This document shows positions 4,438 through 18,194 of a DNA stretch of 57,261 bases, piece after piece (positions within the stretch are counted from its first letter, which is position 1; each line of letters opens with the position of its first letter). Both the position numbers and the translations under genes were made by a program. The stretch is from positions 1-57,261 of the forward strand of contig JAUXYM010000087.1 in NCBI GenBank assembly GCA_030694365.1, read 5' to 3'. The stretch is from Nevskia sp. (GTDB lineage Bacteria > Pseudomonadota > Gammaproteobacteria > Nevskiales > Nevskiaceae). Under the pieces are notes generated by a model, which saw nothing but the letters and a program-made list of their open reading frames with translations, had not been told where the DNA came from and did no database searches.

Positions 4438-7059
4438 TCAGAGTTTCTTTTCGATCCATTCAAGCGCCGAGGCCAGGGCCGCCGGCAGGTTTTCCGGCTG
4501 CGTGCCGCCGCCCTGCGCCATGTCGGGACGACCACCGCCCTTGCCGCCGACTTGCGCCGCGACAAACGCCAGCAGTTCACCGGCTTTGAGCTTCGCGGTC
4601 AGGTCCGCCGTCACGCCGGCGATCAGATTGACCTTGTCACCGCTGACGACGCCGAGCAGCACGACAGCCGAGCCGAGCTTGTTCTTCAGCTGATCGAGCA
4701 GGTTGCGAAGCTCGCTGCTATCGACACCGTCCACCGCCGTCACTAGCACCTTCACGCCGTTGACCAGCTTGGCTTGTCCGGCGAGTTCATCACCCGCGCT
4801 GGCCGCCAGCTTGCCCTTGAGCTGGGCAAGCTCCTTTTCGAGCTGCTTCTGCGCTTCTAGCATCGCCGTGATGCGCGCGCCAAGCTCGGCAGGTGAAGAC
4901 TTCAGCATCGCCGCCGCGCCGCTCAGACGAGCCTGCAAGTCGTTGACGAACGCCAGCGCGTTATCGCCGGTCACCGCTTCGATTCGACGCACGCCAGCCG
5001 CCACACCACCTTCAGACAGAATCTTGAACAGCCCGATGTCACCGGTGCGGCTGACATGGGTGCCACCGCAAAGCTCGCGCGAACTGCCGATATCGAGCAC
5101 GCGCACTTCGTCGCCGTACTTTTCGCCGAACAGCATCATCGCGCCGGTCTTTTTCGCTTCCTCGATCGGCAGCACGCGCGCCTGCGTCGCGACGTTGGCG
5201 AGGATTTCGGCATTGACCAGACGCTCGACTTCGGCCAGTTCCGCTGCTGTCATCGGCCCAGTGTGGGCGAAGTCGAAGCGGGTCTTGTCGGCATCGACCA
5301 GAGAACCCTTCTGCTGCACATGGCCGCCGAGCACATCGCGCAGCGCCTTGTGCATCAGATGGGTCGCGGAATGGTTGCGCATCGTCGCGCGGCGCTGGCT
5401 GGTTGCCACCGTCGCCGTGACCGTGTCACCAAGCTTCAGCGCGCCGGTTTCAAGCTTGCCGACATGGGCAAACGCACCGCCCTTGATCTTCTGGGTGTCG
5501 GCGACTGCGAAGCCGCCGACGGTGCCGGCGTCGCCGGCCTGACCACCGCTTTCGGCATAGAACGGCGTGCGATCGAGCACCACCCCGCCTTCGTCGCCTG
5601 CTTCCAGCGTGTCGACCGAGACACTGCCGCGATAGAGGCCAACGACCTTCGCGTCGTCGATGATCGTCTGCTCGTAACCAATAAAGATCGTCGCCGACCC
5701 TTCGTACTTGAGCCCTTCGCCAGCAGTGAACTTGCTGGCTGCGCGCGCACGGGTGCGCTGCGCTTCCATCTCGCGGTCGTAGCCTGCTTCGTCGAGCTTG
5801 AGGTTGCGCTCGCGAGCAATGTCGGCGGTCAGATCGAACGGGAAGCCGTAGGTGTCGTACAACTTGAACACCACTTCGCCCGGCACCACGTCGCTCTTGA
5901 GGTTGCCGATCGCGTCTTCGAGCAGCTTCATGCCCTTGTCGAGCGTGGTCGCGAAGCTGTCTTCTTCGCTGCGAATCACCTGCTCGATGCGGGCACGCTG
6001 TTCGACGAGCTCGGGATAAGCCTCGCCCATCGCTTCGGCCAGCGGTGCGACCAGCTTCCAGAAGAAGGCTTCGCTCAGACCCAGCTTGTAGCCATGGCGA
6101 ATCGCGCGGCGCATGACCCGGCGCAGCACGTAGCCACGGCCTTCGTTGCCCGGCGTGATGCCGTCGATGATCAGGAACGCGGCCGAACGGATGTGGTCGG
6201 CCACCACTTTCTGAGACGCGCTCGAATACGGCGCGGTGTTCGACAGCTTCGCGATCGCGTTGACCAGCACCTTGAAGGTGTCGATCTGATAGTTGTCGTT
6301 GCTGCCCTGCATCAAGGCACTGATGCGCTCCAGGCCCATGCCGGTATCGACGCTCGGCGCTGGCAGCTTGCTCAGCTCGCCGCTCTTCGAGCGCTCGAAC
6401 TGCATGAACACCACGTTCCAGATTTCGATCCAGCGATCGCCGTCTTCTTCCGGCGAACCCGGAGGGCCACCGTAGATGCCCTTCGAGCCGTCCGGATCGT
6501 GGTCGTAAAAGATTTCGGTACACGGGCCGCAGGGACCGGTGTCGCCCATCGCCCAGAAGTTGTCCGAAGCGTAAGGCGCGCCCTTGTTGTCACCGATGCG
6601 GACGATGCGCTCGGCCGGAATGCCCATCTGGCGATGCCAGATGTCGTAGGCCTCGTCATCGCTGTGATAAACGGTGACCAGCAGGCGACTCTTGTCGATC
6701 GCCAGCCATTCGGCGCTGGTGATGAACTCCCAGGAGAAGCGGATCGCGTCCTGTTTGAAGTAATCGCCGAACGAGAAATTGCCCAGCATCTCGAAGAAAG
6801 TGTGATGCCGCGCCGTGTATCCGACGTTTTCGAGATCGTTGTGCTTGCCGCCGGCGCGCACGCAGCGCTGGCTCGACGTGGCGCGGGTGTACGGCCGCTT
6901 GTCCTGGCCGGTAAACACATCCTTGAACTGCACCATGCCGGAGTTGGTGAACAGCAGGGTTGGATCGTTGCTCGGCACCAGCGACGACGACGGCACCACC
7001 GCATGGCCTTGCCGACGGAAGTACTCGAGGAAGCGTGCGCGCAGTTCGTTGCTGTTCAT
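4438..7059 (-). CDS. alaS: Alanine--tRNA ligase
   Basis: Charges tRNA-Ala and edits mischarged Ser and Gly. The product is 873 aa, as expected. The start [14 protein letters not shown] at 7059 matches the family; 35 upstream codons in frame are spurious. Domains in order: class II catalytic core (about 1-440, with [12 protein letters not shown]), editing domain with the zinc/active-site motifs [11 protein letters not shown] and [13 protein letters not shown] (about 560-700), and the C-terminal C-Ala domain rich in glycine ([14 protein letters not shown]). It lies downstream of recX behind a probable terminator and upstream of lysC. No irregularities. Confidence 0.97.
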
Positions 7060-7183: not shown

Positions 7184-7681
7184 TCATTCCTCGGGTTCGC
7201 AATCAGCGTCGATCGCGTCGCGCATCACCGAGCGGATCTGCGCCGACGTGAAACCCCGGCTGGCGAGGAAGCGATATCGGCTGGCGGAATCCTTGGCGTC
7301 AACCGGTGCTGCACGGTAGCGACGTTGGTAGACACGGCCGATGACCGCAAGCCAGTCTGGATCGGCTTCGTCGATGGCGGCGACGATCAGTGCGTCGGCA
7401 ACACCGCGCGCCGATAGCTCGGCACGAATCCGCAACGGACCATGGCCTTGGGCGATCCGCGAACGGGCCAGCAAACCGGCATAACGCTCATCGCTTTGCC
7501 AGCCGGATTCGCCGAGTTCGCCAACCACTTCGCTGGCCACAGCCCGATCTAGACCGTCATGGGCCAGCTTGGTGGTCAGTTCGCGCGCGCTGTGCTCGCG
7601 CCGGCTCAAGGCCCGAAGCGCGCGCTCACGCGCCGCTTCGGGTGCCAAAGGCACAGGCGGCTTGCGCCCGCGCCCGGCCAC
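7184..7681 (-). CDS. recX: Regulatory protein RecX
   Basis: Small inhibitor that caps RecA filaments. The product is 165 aa, all-helical, with RecX helix repeats: [23 protein letters not shown] near the N-terminus (residues about 17-40) and the later segments [16 protein letters not shown] and [14 protein letters not shown]. The N-terminus is basic (MAGRGRKPP). It starts 4 nt after the recA stop codon, so recA and recX are cotranscribed, as in most Proteobacteria. It is intact although recA is interrupted. Confidence 0.93.
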
Positions 7682-7685
7682 GGAA

Positions 7686-8741
7686 CTACTCGGCTGCCGG
7701 CGTGCGCGTCTTCACCGGCAACAGCTTCGCTCGCAGCGACACTTCGATGGCGTTGGCGATCTCCGGATGCTCCTTGAGATAGTTCCGCGAGTTGTCCTTG
7801 CCCTGGCCGATCTTTTCGCCCTTGTAGGCGTACCAGGCACCGGACTTCTCAACGAAGCCATGCTCGACACCGAGGTCGATCAGCTCGCCCAGTTTCGAAA
7901 TGCCCTCGTTGTACAGAATCTCGAAATGCGCTTCGCGGAACGGTGGCGCCATCTTGTTCTTGACCACCTTGACTCGCGTCTCGTTGCCGACCACTTCCTC
8001 GCCCTTCTTGATCGCGCCAGTGCGGCGGATGTCCAGGCGCACCGAGGCGTAGAACTTCAGCGCATTGCCGCCGGTGGTGGTTTCCGGCGAGCCCTACATC
8101 ACGCCGATCTTCATGCGGATCTGGTTGATGAAGATGACCAGCGTGTTCGAGCGCTTGATGTTGGACGTCAGCTTGCGCAGCGCCTGCGACATCAAACGGG
8201 CCTGCAGGCCAACGTGGCTGTCGCCCATCTCGCCTTCGATTTCAGCCTTCGGCACCAGGGCGGCAACCGAGTCGACGACGATGCAGTCAACGCTGTTCGA
8301 ACGCACCAGCATGTCGGCGATTTCCAGACCTTGCTCGCCGGTATCCGGCTGCGAGATCAACATGTCGCCAACCACCACGCCCAAGCGCTCCGCATACTGC
8401 GGATCGAGTGCATTTTCGGCATCGATGTAGGCAGCGGTGCCGCCGTGCTTCTGGATCTCGGCAACCACCTGCAGACACAGCGTGGTCTTGCCCGAAGACT
8501 CCGGACCATAGATTTCGACCACGCGGCCGCGCGGCAAACCGCCGATGCCAAGGGCAACGTCCAGCGCAAGCGAACCCGTCGACACGACCTCGACATCGCG
8601 GGCCGGATCGTCAGCACCCATGCGCATGACCGCACCCTTGCCAAACTGCTTCTCGATCTGGCTGAGAGCAGCTTCCAATGCCTTCTTGCGATTGTCGTCC
8701 ATGGTCTGGGTTCCGGTCGCTGCTGCGCTAGGTTTTGCCAT
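7686..8741 (-). pseudogene. recA: Recombinase RecA, interrupted by an in-frame amber codon
   Basis: RecA forms filaments on ssDNA for strand exchange and triggers LexA self-cleavage. The full frame is 351 aa, normal length, but TAG at 8094-8096 interrupts codon 216. The frame resumes at once with [18 protein letters not shown], so no sequence is inserted or missing. Visible parts: Walker [10 protein letters not shown], Walker B VDCIVVDS, and loop L2 ([11 protein letters not shown] then stop then [10 protein letters not shown]). Aligned by eye with E. coli RecA, the stop replaces Phe203 of L2; TAC (Tyr) to TAG would be a single base change. The truncated product would lack half of L2 and the whole C-terminal domain. 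The natural stop is also TAG. It lies 29 nt after efp and just before recX. This could be a true mutation, a strain variant or a sequencing or assembly error. Confidence 0.9.
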
Positions 8742-11798: not shown

Positions 11799-12107
11799 TC
11801 AACCGATCAGGCCGGACGGCAGCAGCGACAGCATGCCCTGCAGCAACGCCGCCTGATGCTGGATCAGCAGGCCCACCATCAGCGCGACGATGCCGAGCTT
11901 CAGCGCAAAGGTGATCAACGGGCTGTCGATGATCAGATCGCTCTGATCTGCGACTGAGGCAAGGCGTGGGGTGTTGCGGCGAACCGTACCGGCATTGCTG
12001 ACCACGCCGCGACGGGCATCGTCGAAATACAGCTGACGATGCTGGGCGACATTGCGATTGATCAGACGACGACGGCGGGCTTCTTCGCGCTGCTGTTGCT
12101 GGTTCAT
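11799..12107 (-). CDS. Small single-pass membrane protein cotranscribed with lexA
   Basis: No family recognised. The product is 102 aa: a charged, Gln/Arg-rich N-terminal half (MNQQQQREEARRRR) and one hydrophobic helix at about residues 67-86 (FALKLGIVALMVGLLI), then a short tail. The positive charge before the helix suggests an N-in orientation. Its ATG overlaps the lexA TGA (ATGA at 12104-12107), so translation is likely coupled and the gene would be SOS-induced from the lexA box. In Pseudomonas the gene in this position is sulA, and several unrelated SOS division inhibitors (SidA, YneA) are small single-pass membrane proteins; a similar role here is only inference. Confidence 0.7.
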   Translation of the reverse strand: MNQQQQREEARRRRLINRNVAQHRQLYFDDARRGVVSNAGTVRRNTPRLASVADQSDLIIDSPLITFALKLGIVALMVGLLIQHQAALLQGMLSLLPSGLIG

Positions 12108-12727
12108 CGACGTACTCCAATGACGCCCAGAGCCAGTCCTTCGATCACCAGTTCCTGCTCGCGCAGGTCGAGGATGATTGGCTGGTAGGCCGGGTCGGTG
12201 TTTTCAGGAATCAGGCTGACGATGTGGCCCTCGCGCTTGAAGCGCTTGACCGTCGCTTCATCGCCGATGCGGGCGACAACGATCTGGCCGTTCATCGCGT
12301 TCTGGGCGCGCTTCACGGCCAGCAGATCACCATCGAGAATGCCGGCGTCGCGCATCGACTGGCCCTTCACTCTCAGCAGGAAATCCGGTGCCGGCTCGAA
12401 CAGGTTTGCAGCCAGATCGCGATGATCGTCGAGGTTCTCGACCGCGAGGATCGGCAGACCGGCCGCAACGCGACCGACGACCGGAATCTTCAGCATCTCG
12501 ACCCGGCGTTCACGATGCTGGACCGCCAGGCGAATCCCGCGCGCCTGACCAGTCACTTCCAGATGGCCTTTCTCGGCCAGCGTGCGCAGATACTGTTCGG
12601 CGGAATTCGCGGAGCGCAGGCCGAAAGCGGCGGCGATTTCAGCGCGCGTCGGCGCACCGCCGTTATCGGCGATGTGCTTGCAAATGAAATCGAGTACCTG
12701 GGTCTGTCTTGCAGTAAGATCGGTCAT
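12104..12727 (-). CDS. lexA: SOS repressor LexA
   Basis: Represses SOS genes and cleaves itself when RecA filaments form. The product is 207 aa. The start MTDLTARQTQVLDFI at 12727 has AAGGA about 9 nt upstream; 13 further codons in frame would overlap the operator. N-terminal winged helix with recognition region RSANSAEQYL, where E. coli LexA has RSPNAAEEHL, so two contact positions differ (Ala42 to Ser, Glu45 to Gln by eye). Cleavage site RVAAGLPI (Ala-Gly), catalytic Ser in GQSMRDAG and Lys in ATVKRF. It has its own LexA box and lies at the 3' side of imuA-imuB-dnaE2. Confidence 0.96.
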   Translation of the reverse strand: MTDLTARQTQVLDFICKHIADNGGAPTRAEIAAAFGLRSANSAEQYLRTLAEKGHLEVTGQARGIRLAVQHRERRVEMLKIPVVGRVAAGLPILAVENLDDHRDLAANLFEPAPDFLLRVKGQSMRDAGILDGDLLAVKRAQNAMNGQIVVARIGDEATVKRFKREGHIVSLIPENTDPAYQPIILDLREQELVIEGLALGVIGVRR

Positions 12728-12875: not shown

Positions 12876-15800
12876 TCAGTGGAAGTTGCGCGATACGACC
12901 GGCATATCGGCGATCCAGTCGCTGACATCGCGGAAGCGCTCGGCGACAACATGGGTAACGCCATCGACCTTCTGCAGTTCGCCAGCGACGATCAGCAGGC
13001 GGCTGCCAAGCAACACGGCGCGCTGCGCATCGAAACTCTTTTTCCAGACCACCAGGTTGTGGCAGCCGGTCTCGTCTTCCAGGGTCATGAACATCACGCC
13101 TTTGGCGGTCTGCGGACGCTGACGATTCAACACCAGGCCGGCGATTCGCACGCTTTGCCGGTGTGCAAGCGTCGCCATGTCGGCCGATGTCCGCACGCCA
13201 AGTTTTGCGAGCCTGGGCCGCAGCAGGGCCAGCGGATGACGGCGCAAGCTCAGGCCGGTGCTCTGGTAGTCGGCCAGCACCTCTTCCGCTTCATGCGGCA
13301 CTCGCAGGACGACATCGCTTTCAAGCGACGCATGACCCGCCAGCATCGCCGGCAGGTCTTCGATGCCCTGCACTTGCCAGTGCACAGCATGACGATGGCC
13401 GCCCAAAGTGCGCAGCGCATCGGCCTTGGCCAGCAAGCGACGCGTGGCAACATCAAGCGCGGCACGGCGCACCAGGTCCTCGATGTCGACGAACGACGCA
13501 TCGCGGCGCGCAGCCACAATGCTGTTCGCCACGTCCTCGTTCAGGCCATCGACCAGACGCAGGCCCAGCCGGATAGCTGGATTGCCGTCGCGTGCCTTGG
13601 GAACCGTGCAGTCCCAGTCGCTGTTCCTGACATCGACCGGCCGCACTTCCACCCCTGCCCGCTTCGCTTCGCGGATCAGCTGCGCCGGCCCGTAGAAGCC
13701 CATCGGCTGGCTGTTGATCAGCGCGGCGAAGAAGGCGGCCGGATGGTGGCGCTTGATCCAGGAAGAGACATAGGCAAGCAGCGCAAAGCTCGCCGAATGC
13801 GACTCCGGAAAACCGTAGCTGCCGAAGCCCTTGATCATCTCGAAGATCTGTTCGGCGAAGGCTGCCTCGTAAAGGTTCTTCTGCATGCCGTCGAGCAGAC
13901 GCTGGCGCAACGGCATCAGGCTGCCGTCCTTGCCCCAGGCGGCCATCGAACGACGCAGCTGATCGGCTTCGCCCTGAGAAAAATCGGCGGCAACTACCGC
14001 GATCTCGATGACCTGCTCCTGGAATAGCGGCACGCCCAGGGTGCGACTCAGCACGTCTTCGAGTTCCGGGCTTGGATAAGTCACGGAATCCGGATATTTC
14101 CGCCGCTTCAGATAGGGATGGACCATGCCGCCCTGGATCGGCCCCGGCCGGACGATCGCGATCTGGATCACCAGATCGTAGAAATTCTTGGGCCGCAAAC
14201 GCGGCAGCATGCTCATCTGCGCCCGCGATTCGATCTGGAACACGCCCACCGTGTCGGCCGCCTGGATCATCTCGTAGGTGGGTTTATCGTCACGCGGGAT
14301 GCTGACGATCGAATGCCGCACACCGGTCTGCCGTTCGATGAATTCGAACATCCGCCGGATCGCGCTGAGCATGCCCAGCGCCAGACAATCGACCTTCAGC
14401 AGGCCCAGCGCTTCGAGATCGTCCTTCTCCCACTGGATGATCGTGCGATCCGGCATCGCCGCGTTTTCGACCGGCACCAGTTCGTGCAGCGGATGCTCGG
14501 AAATGACGAAGCCGCCGACGTGCTGGGACAGATGGCGCGGTGTGCCGACCAGCGCCCGCACCAGCTTGAGCCAGCGCGCGACGATCGGCGCTTCCGGATC
14601 GAAACCCTGCTCGCGCAGGCGATCCGGCAAGGTTTCGGGTTCGTCCCACCAGGCCAGCGAGCCCGACAGGCGATCGATCTCGTCGGCACCGATGCCGAGC
14701 GCCTTGCCCACATCGCGGATCGCCGAACGACGGCGATAGCGGATCACCGTCGCCGCCAGCGCGGCACGTTCGCGGCCGTACTTGTTGTAGATGTACTGCA
14801 TCACCAACTCGCGGCGCTGATGCTCGAAATCGACATCGATGTCCGGCGGCTCATTGCGCTCCCTCGACAGGAAACGGCCGAACAGCAGGCGCTGCTCGGC
14901 CGGATTGACGCTGGTGATGCCGAGCGCGTAGCAGACCGCCGAATTCGCCGCCGATCCCCGGCCCTGACAAAGGATTTCCGGTGTCTGCGCACGCGCCCAG
15001 CGGACGATGTCGTGCACGGTCAGGAAAAAGGCTTCGTAACGAAGCTCGATGATCAGCTCCAGCTCCAGCTCGATGGTCTTGCGCACTGCGGCAGGTTCGC
15101 CCTCCGGCCAACGGTCGCGCAGGCCCTGTTCGGTGAGCACGCGCAACCAGCTGCTGCGCGTGTGGCCGGCCGGCACCAGCTCATGCGGGTATTCGTAGTT
15201 CAGTCCAGCCATCGAAAAGCTGCAGCGCTCGGCGATCGCGGTGGCCTCGGCCAGCAAGGCGTCCGGATACAGCGTCCGCAGTTCGGCAATCGGTCGCAGA
15301 TGCCGCTCGCCGTTCGGAAACAGCCGCGTGCCGCAGTCCGCAAGCTGCAGGCCGTGGCGGATTGCGGTCACGGTGTCCTGCAAGGCTCGCGCTTCGCGGA
15401 CATGTATATGGACATCACCAGCCGCCACGCAGCGCAGATGCAATTGCCGACCGAGGCTCAGCAGACGGTTCAGCCGGGCGCGATCATCACCGGACCGATG
15501 TAGTTCCACGGCGACCCAGGCCCGTTCACCAAACTTCGATGCGATGAAGCGGCCTTCGCTTTCCGCAAGCGCGTCGTCATCCGGCGGCAGCCACAGCACC
15601 AGTACCTGAGCGAGGCCGGTCAGATCTTCGCGAGTCAGGAAGTACTCGCCCTTGTCCGCCGCGCGGCGGCCGATGGTGATCAGCCGGCAAATCTGGCTGT
15701 AGGCCGCATGATCGGGTGCCAGCAGCACGAAGCGCAGGCCGTCATCGAGCCGAAACTCGGCACCGACGATCAGCTTGAAGCCAAGCGCCTTTGCCGCGAC

Positions 15801-15959
15801 ATGCGTGCGAACCATGCCAGCCATCGAGCATTCGTCGGTGAGCGCCAGTGCTGCGTAGCCTTGCGTCTGTGCGGCTTCGATCAGTTGCGCGGGCGATGAC
15901 GCCCCGCGCAGGAAGCTGTAGTGCGACAGACAATGCAGCTCGGCGTATCCGCTCGTCAC
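12876..15959 (-). CDS. dnaE2: Error-prone DNA polymerase DnaE2 (ImuC)
   Basis: C-family polymerase that performs SOS translesion synthesis with ImuA and ImuB. The product is 1027 aa, within the usual range. It starts with GTG 15959 (MTSGYAELHCLSHYSFLRG), 9 nt after imuB. An N-terminal PHP domain (about 1-270) is followed by the polymerase core with the catalytic motif PPDIDVDFEHQRR near residue 370 and GRGSAANSAVCYALGIT. There is a helix-hairpin-helix region around 830-900 and a C-terminal OB-fold (RIAGLVLNRQRPQTAKGVMF). It lacks the long tau-binding tail of DnaE1. Cotranscribed with imuA-imuB under LexA control. Confidence 0.95.
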   Translation of the reverse strand: MTSGYAELHCLSHYSFLRGASSPAQLIEAAQTQGYAALALTDECSMAGMVRTHVAAKALGFKLIVGAEFRLDDGLRFVLLAPDHAAYSQICRLITIGRRAADKGEYFLTREDLTGLAQVLVLWLPPDDDALAESEGRFIASKFGERAWVAVELHRSGDDRARLNRLLSLGRQLHLRCVAAGDVHIHVREARALQDTVTAIRHGLQLADCGTRLFPNGERHLRPIAELRTLYPDALLAEATAIAERCSFSMAGLNYEYPHELVPAGHTRSSWLRVLTEQGLRDRWPEGEPAAVRKTIELELELIIELRYEAFFLTVHDIVRWARAQTPEILCQGRGSAANSAVCYALGITSVNPAEQRLLFGRFLSRERNEPPDIDVDFEHQRRELVMQYIYNKYGRERAALAATVIRYRRRSAIRDVGKALGIGADEIDRLSGSLAWWDEPETLPDRLREQGFDPEAPIVARWLKLVRALVGTPRHLSQHVGGFVISEHPLHELVPVENAAMPDRTIIQWEKDDLEALGLLKVDCLALGMLSAIRRMFEFIERQTGVRHSIVSIPRDDKPTYEMIQAADTVGVFQIESRAQMSMLPRLRPKNFYDLVIQIAIVRPGPIQGGMVHPYLKRRKYPDSVTYPSPELEDVLSRTLGVPLFQEQVIEIAVVAADFSQGEADQLRRSMAAWGKDGSLMPLRQRLLDGMQKNLYEAAFAEQIFEMIKGFGSYGFPESHSASFALLAYVSSWIKRHHPAAFFAALINSQPMGFYGPAQLIREAKRAGVEVRPVDVRNSDWDCTVPKARDGNPAIRLGLRLVDGLNEDVANSIVAARRDASFVDIEDLVRRAALDVATRRLLAKADALRTLGGHRHAVHWQVQGIEDLPAMLAGHASLESDVVLRVPHEAEEVLADYQSTGLSLRRHPLALLRPRLAKLGVRTSADMATLAHRQSVRIAGLVLNRQRPQTAKGVMFMTLEDETGCHNLVVWKKSFDAQRAVLLGSRLLIVAGELQKVDGVTHVVAERFRDVSDWIADMPVVSRNFH

Positions 15960-15968
15960 TGTGACGGC

Positions 15969-17444
15969 TCAGGCCCAGACACCGTGCAGGAACCAGCCCT
16001 CGCTGCGGCGATCGCGGAACACCCAGAGGCCGCTGCCCTGCACATCGCTGCGGTAGTAGTCGCGCTGCACGTCGTCACCGTCCCACCAGCCGCCTTCCAG
16101 GCGTTCGAATCCGGCGATCCGGGCAGGAGCAGATGAAAGCGGCTTCGGCGGGTCGATCAGCCAGATCGGCCGTGGCGGCAGTTCGGACAACGATGGCAGC
16201 GCGGCGGGTGACGGCGGCGGCGCATCGCAGGCGCGCAGGTGCCAGCTGCGCTCGGGCCGGTGATCGGCGATCAGGCCAAGCGCAGTCACTGCTTCGGCAC
16301 CGAGCCGGGCGATCAGCTTTTCGATCAGCTGGCTCCAGGCTTCATCGTCACCGGCACGGCTTTCGAACAGGTCGCCCTGCCCGGTTGGCGGTTCGATGAA
16401 ATGCTCGGCGCTCAGCTTCAGGCTGCGCACCGGTGCCGGCAGCGGCATGCGGCTCAGGCGTTCGCGCAGCACGCGCAGCAGGCGTTCGGCGTCACGCGCC
16501 GGGCTGGCCAGACGCAGGTCGAGCACGGTGTCGGGCTGCGGCTTGCCGCCGCTGGCGCGGCCGTGGTTCAGGGTCAGCCGGAAGGCTTGCAGACCGGTGT
16601 CGCGGGCTTTCAGGAAATGGCCGAGTTCGCGGGTCATCCGCTGCAGCGGAAACAGCAGGCCTTCCGTGTGCTCGACATCACCCATCAGGTCGAAACGCCG
16701 CTGGTACTTCGGCGGCAGCCGGAAGCGCGGCCGCACATCCGGACGGCGGCCGAGCAGGCGGTCGAGATACAAGGTGAACGCGAGACCATGGCGTTTGGCC
16801 AGCGGTGCGGCCGGAAGTTTGAGCAGTTCGCCGATGCCGCTCAGGCCGACAGCTTTCAGCGCGTCCTGAACCTTCGGTTCCAGCGGCAGCGCGGCCAGCG
16901 GCAGGCCATCGAGCACGGCGGGCAGTTCGGCAGCAGCGCAGACCGGCTGCGACAACCCGAGCCGCGCCAGCAGTGCCGCCGCTTCCAGGGTCGGTGCCAG
17001 GCCACGATTGCCGACATGGCCGCTGTCGGCAAAGCCGGCATCGAAATCGGCCAGCAGGGCATCCAGCCCGCCGAACAACTTGAGGCTGGCACCGATATCG
17101 ACCCAGAGCAGTGCGCAGGGCAAGCCGTAATCCAGCTCGCTTTCGGTGATCTCCCAGACCAGTTCGGAACCGTAGCGATACGCCCAGGCGGCCAGTGCCT
17201 GCATGGCTTCGCGTTCGGAGCGCGGCTTGCGTTCGACGGCGCGAATGTCCGGATGCAGCGTCTGCACGGTGCCCCAGTCGGTGCCCGGCATGACGCGATC
17301 GGAAGCACCCGCAAGCACCCAGCGGCGTGCGCCCCGACGCCCGGTGACGACCTGCAGGCCGGCCTGAGAGGCAGGTTCCATCCCGGCAGTCGTACCGAGC
17401 GCTTCCAGCGAAAACTGCGGCAGATGCAGGCAAAGCCAGAGCAT
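15969..17444 (-). CDS. imuB: DNA repair protein ImuB (inactive Y-family polymerase homologue)
   Basis: Adaptor of the ImuA-ImuB-DnaE2 mutasome; it links the beta clamp to DnaE2. The product is 491 aa. The N-terminus MLWLCLHLPQFSLEAL replaces the acidic catalytic motif of active Y-family polymerases, as expected for ImuB. QGDLF near residue 365 is a good clamp-binding motif. The conserved C-terminal block runs from RDYYRSDVQG to GWFLHGVWA. The start lies 5 nt after the imuA stop, so the two are translationally close. Family assignment is firm. Confidence 0.93.
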   Translation of the reverse strand: MLWLCLHLPQFSLEALGTTAGMEPASQAGLQVVTGRRGARRWVLAGASDRVMPGTDWGTVQTLHPDIRAVERKPRSEREAMQALAAWAYRYGSELVWEITESELDYGLPCALLWVDIGASLKLFGGLDALLADFDAGFADSGHVGNRGLAPTLEAAALLARLGLSQPVCAAAELPAVLDGLPLAALPLEPKVQDALKAVGLSGIGELLKLPAAPLAKRHGLAFTLYLDRLLGRRPDVRPRFRLPPKYQRRFDLMGDVEHTEGLLFPLQRMTRELGHFLKARDTGLQAFRLTLNHGRASGGKPQPDTVLDLRLASPARDAERLLRVLRERLSRMPLPAPVRSLKLSAEHFIEPPTGQGDLFESRAGDDEAWSQLIEKLIARLGAEAVTALGLIADHRPERSWHLRACDAPPPSPAALPSLSELPPRPIWLIDPPKPLSSAPARIAGFERLEGGWWDGDDVQRDYYRSDVQGSGLWVFRDRRSEGWFLHGVWA

Positions 17445-17449
17445 GGCGA

Positions 17450-18085
17450 TCAGCCGTTCGCAGCCAGTGCCGGCAGCAGTACATCAACCGCTGCCGGCGT
17501 GCCGCCGCGACTTTTGAAAATGTCGACCCGCACCCCGCCCGGCCGCGCGGTGAGCTTCAGTCTCAATGCGGCCGGCGAGAACTCGGCCGCCGCGCGCGGC
17601 TCGCGGAACAGCAGGGCGGTGGTCTTGCCGGTTTCGGCGGCGAGCTGGAAGCGTTTCAGTTCCACCACACCGAGCCGCCCCGGCCAGGCCAGCACCGCGC
17701 CACAAGGCCCGGCACGCAAGATCTGCTCGGTCGCCCACAGGCCGCCGTCCTCGGACTGCGGCCGTACCAGCAGCAGGCGGGCCAGCACGATGCCGGCCTG
17801 GGCCAGCGCCGGTGCGAACGGCAGATGCGGTGGATCGACCAGCGCCACCCGGCCGCCGGCCTGGGTCAGCCGGGCGATCCACGGCAGCACCAACTGCATC
17901 TCGCCGATGCCCTGAGTGTCCGGAAACAGTTCGGTCAGCGCACCCACCGGCCAGCCGCCACCCGGTAATCTGCGATCCAGTTCGGCATGGCCGCTGGGTT
18001 CGGCGGTGACCCGGGCGAAGTCGCCACCGCGCCAGATATCAGGCCGGGCCAGTACCTCGCTCAGGGACGGCACCAGGGCGGTCAC
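17450..18085 (-). CDS. imuA: SOS translesion cofactor ImuA
   Basis: RecA-like accessory protein of the ImuB/DnaE2 mutasome. The product is 211 aa. The N-terminal region has LDRRLPGGGWPVGALTELF, the conserved ImuA block, followed by GGRVALVDPPHLPFAPAL; a true Walker A is absent, as in many ImuA proteins. First gene of the imuA-imuB-dnaE2 unit. The start codon lies 109 bp downstream of a LexA-type box, leaving a leader of about 100 nt. Confidence 0.9.
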   Translation of the reverse strand: MTALVPSLSEVLARPDIWRGGDFARVTAEPSGHAELDRRLPGGGWPVGALTELFPDTQGIGEMQLVLPWIARLTQAGGRVALVDPPHLPFAPALAQAGIVLARLLLVRPQSEDGGLWATEQILRAGPCGAVLAWPGRLGVVELKRFQLAAETGKTTALLFREPRAAAEFSPAALRLKLTARPGGVRVDIFKSRGGTPAAVDVLLPALAANG

Positions 18086-18194
18086 GAACCACTCCGGCAG
18101 GCACTGAGAGCTGGCATTGGAAAATGCAAGCCTTTGATTTCAGGTGATATGGAGTGATTGCGGAAGGACATCGGAATCTGCCAGAGATGATTGT

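Follow-up and report, generated by a model that had tools for sequence, protein, structure and literature searches.

In Borrelia recurrentis, recA carries an in-frame stop codon, according to the available text of the genome report (PMC2525819), and in the symbionts of Calyptogena clams the gene is described, in the accessible part of the study, as degenerating (PMC3202245). At the level of the protein, the available portion of a review states that Phe203 stabilises kinks in double-stranded DNA (PMC10573387), and the E. coli RecA F203A variant, in the part of the report at hand, retains its ATPase activity and about one fifth of the initial rate of D-loop formation (PMC10954442). Here we describe a recA gene of a Nevskia sp. 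genome (G000; its relatives are numbered in the same way) that is interrupted by one in-frame amber codon. The window, 57,261 nucleotides long, makes up all of contig C45 in this genome. The draft, which is probably a metagenome-assembled genome, comprises 3,084,992 bases on 124 contigs and is 89.44% complete with 0.08% contamination.

The initial annotation had reported the amber at codon 216, and this reading is confirmed by the plus strand, where the letters at 8094-8096 are CTA, that is, TAG on the minus strand (Table 1). Apart from this codon, the frame is open throughout; the disabling lesion is the TAG, and no frameshift was found in the gene. The profile searches also bear out that the frame is complete at 351 codons and that the match to the family continues directly after the stop. 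The two halves of the protein cover positions 1-195 and 197-262 of the Pfam RecA profile, with one column skipped and no insertion, and the RecA_C domain is matched after the second segment, in the half beyond the stop. Both halves are thus recognised (TIGR02012, or PF00154 and PF21096) and are collinear, but a stop lies between them, and the N-terminal piece alone passes the NCBIfam TIGR02012 cut-off. In the alignment with the relatives, the stop stands at the F/Y column of the stretch ...MKIGVM[F/Y]GSPETTTGG..., where most sequences have Phe or Tyr. A promoter scan upstream of recA found none, and the E. coli-type SOS box pattern gave 7 matches versus 13.5 expected by chance, from which we draw no conclusion.

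Table 1. Coordinates of recA, its parts and its neighbours in the window.
Feature	Positions	Strand	Remarks
recA frame	7686..8741	minus	351 codons followed by a TAG terminator (7686-7688); amber at codon 216
In-frame amber TAG, codon 216 of recA	8094..8096	minus	all 49 relatives read have a sense codon here
N-terminal open frame, 215 codons up to the amber	8094..8741	minus	RecA ATP-binding core; lacks the rest of L2 and the C-terminal domain
recA part beyond the amber, 135 codons	7689..8093	minus	purifying selection in pairwise comparison
recX, open	7184..7681	minus	three Pfam RecX domains above cut-offs; NCBIfam RecX models best but below cut-offs
alaS, open	4438..7041	minus	TIGR00344, 999.8 bits, no stop; Pfam
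lexA, open	12104..12727	minus	TIGR00498, 206.8 bits, no stop
Error-prone DNA polymerase (DnaE2 type), open	12876..15968	minus	NCBIfam NF004225, 1390.5 bits
Putative imuB, open frame between imuA and dnaE2	15969..17483	minus	named by position only
imuA, open	17450..18100	minus	NCBIfam NF033429, 207.8 bits

Codon 216 corresponds to Phe203 of E. coli RecA. This correspondence is consistent with the available part of the review, which describes Phe203 in loop L2 (PMC10573387). The initial annotation had considered the coincidence with a DNA-contact residue worth a check, and on checking it carries little weight. With loop limits that we presume for L1 and L2, only 6 of the 109 single-base routes to a stop in recA fall within these two loops (23 codons), and 2 lie at codon 216; furthermore, the F203A protein still forms D-loops. 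A stop at this codon would remove 136 residues, among them those of the C-terminal domain and the remainder of L2, and which residue was hit therefore hardly matters.

Two of the four explanations that accompanied the first description of the amber remain, an error in the base and a loss of RecA, the latter very recent; the other two fared worse, since a second recA was not found in the assembly and general read-through of the amber is disfavoured. We regard it as about an even call, and as the likeliest explanation, that the TAG is a wrong consensus base, with recA intact in the cell, presumably because of a fault in sequencing or assembly or the collapse of strain variants. Somewhat short of even is the probability that the base is real, in which case the TAG would be a very recent nonsense mutation and the sampled population would carry a recA null allele. 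Such an allele would encode a predicted-inactive N-terminal piece of 215 residues, recombination would be lost and LexA cleavage would end; the loss of recA would then be very young.

A full-length RecA match was found in 56 of the 60 relatives searched, and no internal stop occurs in any of these 56; G033 and G059 gave partial matches, and G016 and G022 gave none beyond weak ones. Codon 216 was read in 49 of the 56 relatives, as Tyr in 19 and Phe in 27, with no aromatic residue aligned there in 3 (G006, G013 and G017), and in none as a stop. The consistent presence of a sense codon, together with the lack of internal stops, speaks for a wrong base in G000, and leaves no sign of a conserved recoding stop among these relatives. 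Within the genus, Tyr occupies the site in 13 of the 16 genomes with recA, in agreement with the Tyr codon that had been proposed as ancestral. The nearest relatives, G002, G010 and G014, share about 88-90% nucleotide identity with G000 around recA and, as judged from their sequences, probably represent other species. G002 and the G010/G014 pair use different Tyr codons, so the site was evolving as an ordinary Tyr codon. Across the class, a RecA match was obtained in 342 of 369 genomes, with no stop among the best-scoring matches listed; as this set holds only best-scoring matches, and that of G000 itself lies outside it, it gives no rate of recA stops. We also considered whether loss of recA is a habit of the genus, given that G016 has no recA, and rejected this idea because G016 also has no full alaS match, the region being probably missing from its assembly. 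In the RecA proteins of G006, G013 and G017 (L039, L046 and L049), L2 is two residues longer and has no aromatic residue aligned to Phe203.

A constraint on the age of the stop comes from the substitution pattern of recA. Compared with G002, G014 and G010, the gene shows 51, 58 and 66 synonymous codon differences, respectively, spread on both sides of the stop, and 2, 1 and 1 amino-acid differences besides the stop itself. The part beyond the stop accounts for 22, 29 and 24 of the synonymous differences and for 1-2 amino-acid differences. Polarisation of the changes, for which up to eight outgroups served, assigned 27 synonymous changes to the G000 branch and 0 amino-acid changes; D330N, which the polarisation rule skipped, can be added as one amino-acid change. 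The neutral expectation alongside 27 synonymous changes is 63-80 amino-acid changes, and recA can have been neutral for at most 3.7-7.6% of the branch (95%), that is, about 4-8%. Relaxed selection on recA was looked for and not seen on this branch, with its 27 synonymous and 0-1 amino-acid changes. The stop is thus at most an event at the tip, and constraint on recA extended over about 92-96% of the branch or more, which favours a base error and weighs against a null allele.

The surroundings of recA point in the same direction. The order alaS-recX-recA is present, and for about 17-19 kb the region is colinear with its counterparts in G002 and G014, to which it is 88-89% identical. The initial annotation had called recX, lexA and the SOS mutasome neighbours intact, which holds, as their frames are open and match their families, imuB being assigned by position only (for the putative imuB frame, neither NCBIfam at E<=1e-20 nor Pfam at E<=1e-5 gave a match). 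No decay is seen in the genes that depend on RecA: the frames of RecX, LexA, ImuA and the DnaE2-type polymerase are all open. For nine neighbouring genes, the amino-acid to synonymous changes amount to 34:244 on the G000 branch, 26:239 on that of G002 and 64:240 on that of G014, and the pooled ratio on the G000 branch is ordinary, not relaxed. A raised rate of amino-acid change on the G000 branch, which the raw pN/pS values of alaS, lexA and imuA seemed to indicate, was discarded after polarisation, 34:244 lying between the values of the two sisters. Both the open genes and the ordinary ratio of the neighbours are as expected if recA is intact in the cell, and they argue against a null allele. 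As a separate observation, the N-terminal part of the G000 LexA protein (window 12104-12727) carries the change R16C; Arg occupies this position in the six relatives of the alignment.

We then asked for the same stop in other proteins, through searches that each scored about 8000 candidates, the best 120 being considered. With the 215-residue piece as the query, no protein ending at this place was found among the best 120 of the 8000 hits, which again favours a base error; one 216-residue match among these 120 (P0254), 84% identical, continues with other residues. The top match among those listed for the 118-residue downstream piece is 93% identical. For the read-through protein, the nearest matches listed, P0002 (4 contigs) and P0011 (6 contigs, the longest of 4,838,428 bases), are both intact with Tyr at 216. 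Both differ at residue 330, so neither gives the base error reading an independent intact copy from within the species. Among the listed protein matches, no further assembly of the species of G000 appears; the stop is therefore without independent support, and a same-species intact copy is likewise lacking.

Other lesions in the draft bear on both readings. The comparison with G002 drew on a sampled quarter of G000, in which 147 G002 genes have a counterpart (58,402 codons), and a coding-score filter was applied against shadow frames, which occurred in both directions. An internal stop in G000 was found for 4 of the 147 genes. One candidate, L267, has three stops among its first 50 codons (of 700) and was rejected, an over-long start being the probable cause, and three were kept: recA, a dioxygenase gene (L183) and a DUF5938 gene (L191). 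The dioxygenase gene (DIOX_N / 2OG-Fe(II)) has an isolated TAG at L183:10529-10531 (G000:C22:50529-50531), where G002 has a Lys codon. The DUF5938 gene (L191:4808-5940, G000:C119) differs from the intact G002 gene by a -1, a +7 and an internal TGA, and from its sequence it looks like a multi-lesion pseudogene in true decay; frameshift flags, which were common in both directions and mostly near gene starts or compensated, were used for this gene only. In the reverse direction, an internal stop in G002 was found for 0 of 166 G000 genes.

The two isolated TAGs, in recA and in the dioxygenase gene, could be either stray bases or real decay. The second one fits a background of stray bases in a draft that is incomplete and divided into 124 contigs, as a base error would have it. 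However, that reading is an argument from rarity, and two isolated nonsense codons in 58,402 codons would need a substitution error rate near 3e-4, which is high for a good short-read assembly. Moreover, G000 does not have significantly more broken genes than its sister (3/147 versus 0/166, p = 0.10; p = 0.22 with the two isolated stops alone), and the DUF5938 pseudogene indicates that real gene decay occurs in G000. The same pseudogene, the TAG in the dioxygenase gene and the private R16C of LexA are points in favour of a null allele.

A reference-free scan for in-frame stops over 829,638 bases returned 2239 candidates, with recA ranking 5th; the candidates printed in full were, as judged by eye, mostly antisense shadows or gene boundaries. 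The candidate at 3794 of L193 looks like part of a decayed gene, and L184:5136-5138 (G000:C52) is a possible in-frame TAA in a weakly conserved gene, for which G002 has a sense codon at 70% identity.

The null allele has natural precedents in the in-frame stop of Borrelia recurrentis and the recA point mutations of the clam symbionts, as given in the available texts (PMC2525819; PMC3202245), but both published losses concern host-bound bacteria with shrunken genomes, and we see no sign of such a life here. If the base is real, the SOS switch could no longer be thrown and the mutasome would be locked off. We consider it rather doubtful that the base is real and that the lineage has just lost RecA with LexA, RecX, ImuA and the DnaE2-type polymerase intact, which would represent the first step of such a loss in a genome of ordinary size.

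Read-through of the amber by a suppressor tRNA or local recoding, with full-length RecA being made, would account for a conserved frame that runs on without a gap beyond the stop, and yet we hold it to be very improbable. RF1 is intact in G000 (518.3 bits, no stop), and TAG terminates 97 of the 527 open frames of at least 200 codons, so that TAG is a working stop. No tRNA with a CUA anticodon was found among the 32 tRNA matches of G000, an incomplete set: tRNA-Tyr, -Phe, -Trp, -Cys and -Ile are absent from the scans, and a suppressor could be among these five missing types. A weak tRNA-like match on C113 was examined as a suppressor and rejected, as its alignment shows a UCU rather than a CUA anticodon. 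On the same evidence (RF1, the ordinary use of TAG as terminator and the anticodons found), we rejected reassignment of the amber codon, and general read-through, as proposed at the outset, is disfavoured. In addition, the lack of a stop in the 56 full-length relatives argues against a conserved recoding site, and the two isolated TAGs replace Tyr and Lys codons, which one suppressor would not both restore.

The least probable explanation, that this recA is dead and that the tenth of the genome missing from the assembly contains an intact second recA, can draw on the completeness of 89.44% and on the two full-length RecA-family genes present in 2 of the 60 relatives (G019 and G050), but the other 54 relatives with full-length recA show one, and the copy described here sits in the alaS-recX-recA order and stayed under constraint up to the tip, unlike a redundant copy. 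The PF00154 search of the G000 assembly found one RecA, and the strict limit left one match; the other matches were ImuA (25.9 bits) and a protein on contig C66 (21.1 bits), which we take to be RadA from its length and family. The second RecA-family genes, at 412-416 bits, lie at C2:29863-30648 in G019 and C14:15759-16538 in G050.

A further repair gene attracted our attention. G002 has a gene that we presume to be AddA-like, its recB family match falling below the cut-off, and no counterpart was found in the G000 assembly. Among 18 genomes of the genus, 12 have the gene, and G006, G013 and G017, the three with the longer L2, have only a distant relative of it. Neither the gene nor a distant relative was found in G000, G011 and G016, which are 88-91% complete; G001 and G003, at 86% and 84%, have the gene itself. 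Co-loss of the AddAB nuclease with recA was considered and not used as evidence, as the absence may reflect incompleteness. At the flank of this gene, contig C27 of G000 (L198:1-3200) joins stretches that lie about 220 kb apart in G002 (L268 and L257). In G014, the AddA-like gene (L309, G014:C224:3869-7318) has one in-frame TAG, and it is open in G002 and G010.

The two leading readings differ in what they would mean. Should the TAG be an error, as we hold to be an even call, the case is a caution, since an annotation pipeline would score the species as RecA-deficient from one base. Should it be real, the stop would give a date to the earliest step in the loss of recA, prior to decay of the SOS regulon and in a lineage for which no host-bound life is known, and the order in which RecA, LexA and the mutasome are lost would become directly testable.

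To conclude, the locus can be set beside three known systems. The F203A change of E. coli RecA affects the same L2 residue as the amber of G000; however, F203A is a missense change that keeps the ATPase and slows D-loop formation, whereas the stop costs 136 residues, so its effect is not readable from F203A. The recA loss of the Calyptogena symbionts resembles the present case in starting with point mutations and small indels in a gene that is otherwise present; as far as the available text goes, these symbionts are obligate, have genomes of about 1 Mb, show later, larger deletions and come from several host species (PMC3202245), whereas in G000 a single base is concerned, in one draft of about 3.1 Mb. 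A further parallel is found in Borrelia recurrentis, where, in the available part of the report, a single in-frame stop likewise interrupts a recognisable recA that is intact in a close relative, and where the authors similarly could not rule out that expression is kept (PMC2525819). That organism is a louse-borne pathogen in which mutS and smf are also impaired and whose genome is a shrunken subset of that of its sister, according to the same text (PMC2525819). G000 differs from Borrelia recurrentis in having open frames for LexA, ImuA, RecX and the polymerase, and in that the interrupting base stands without independent support.
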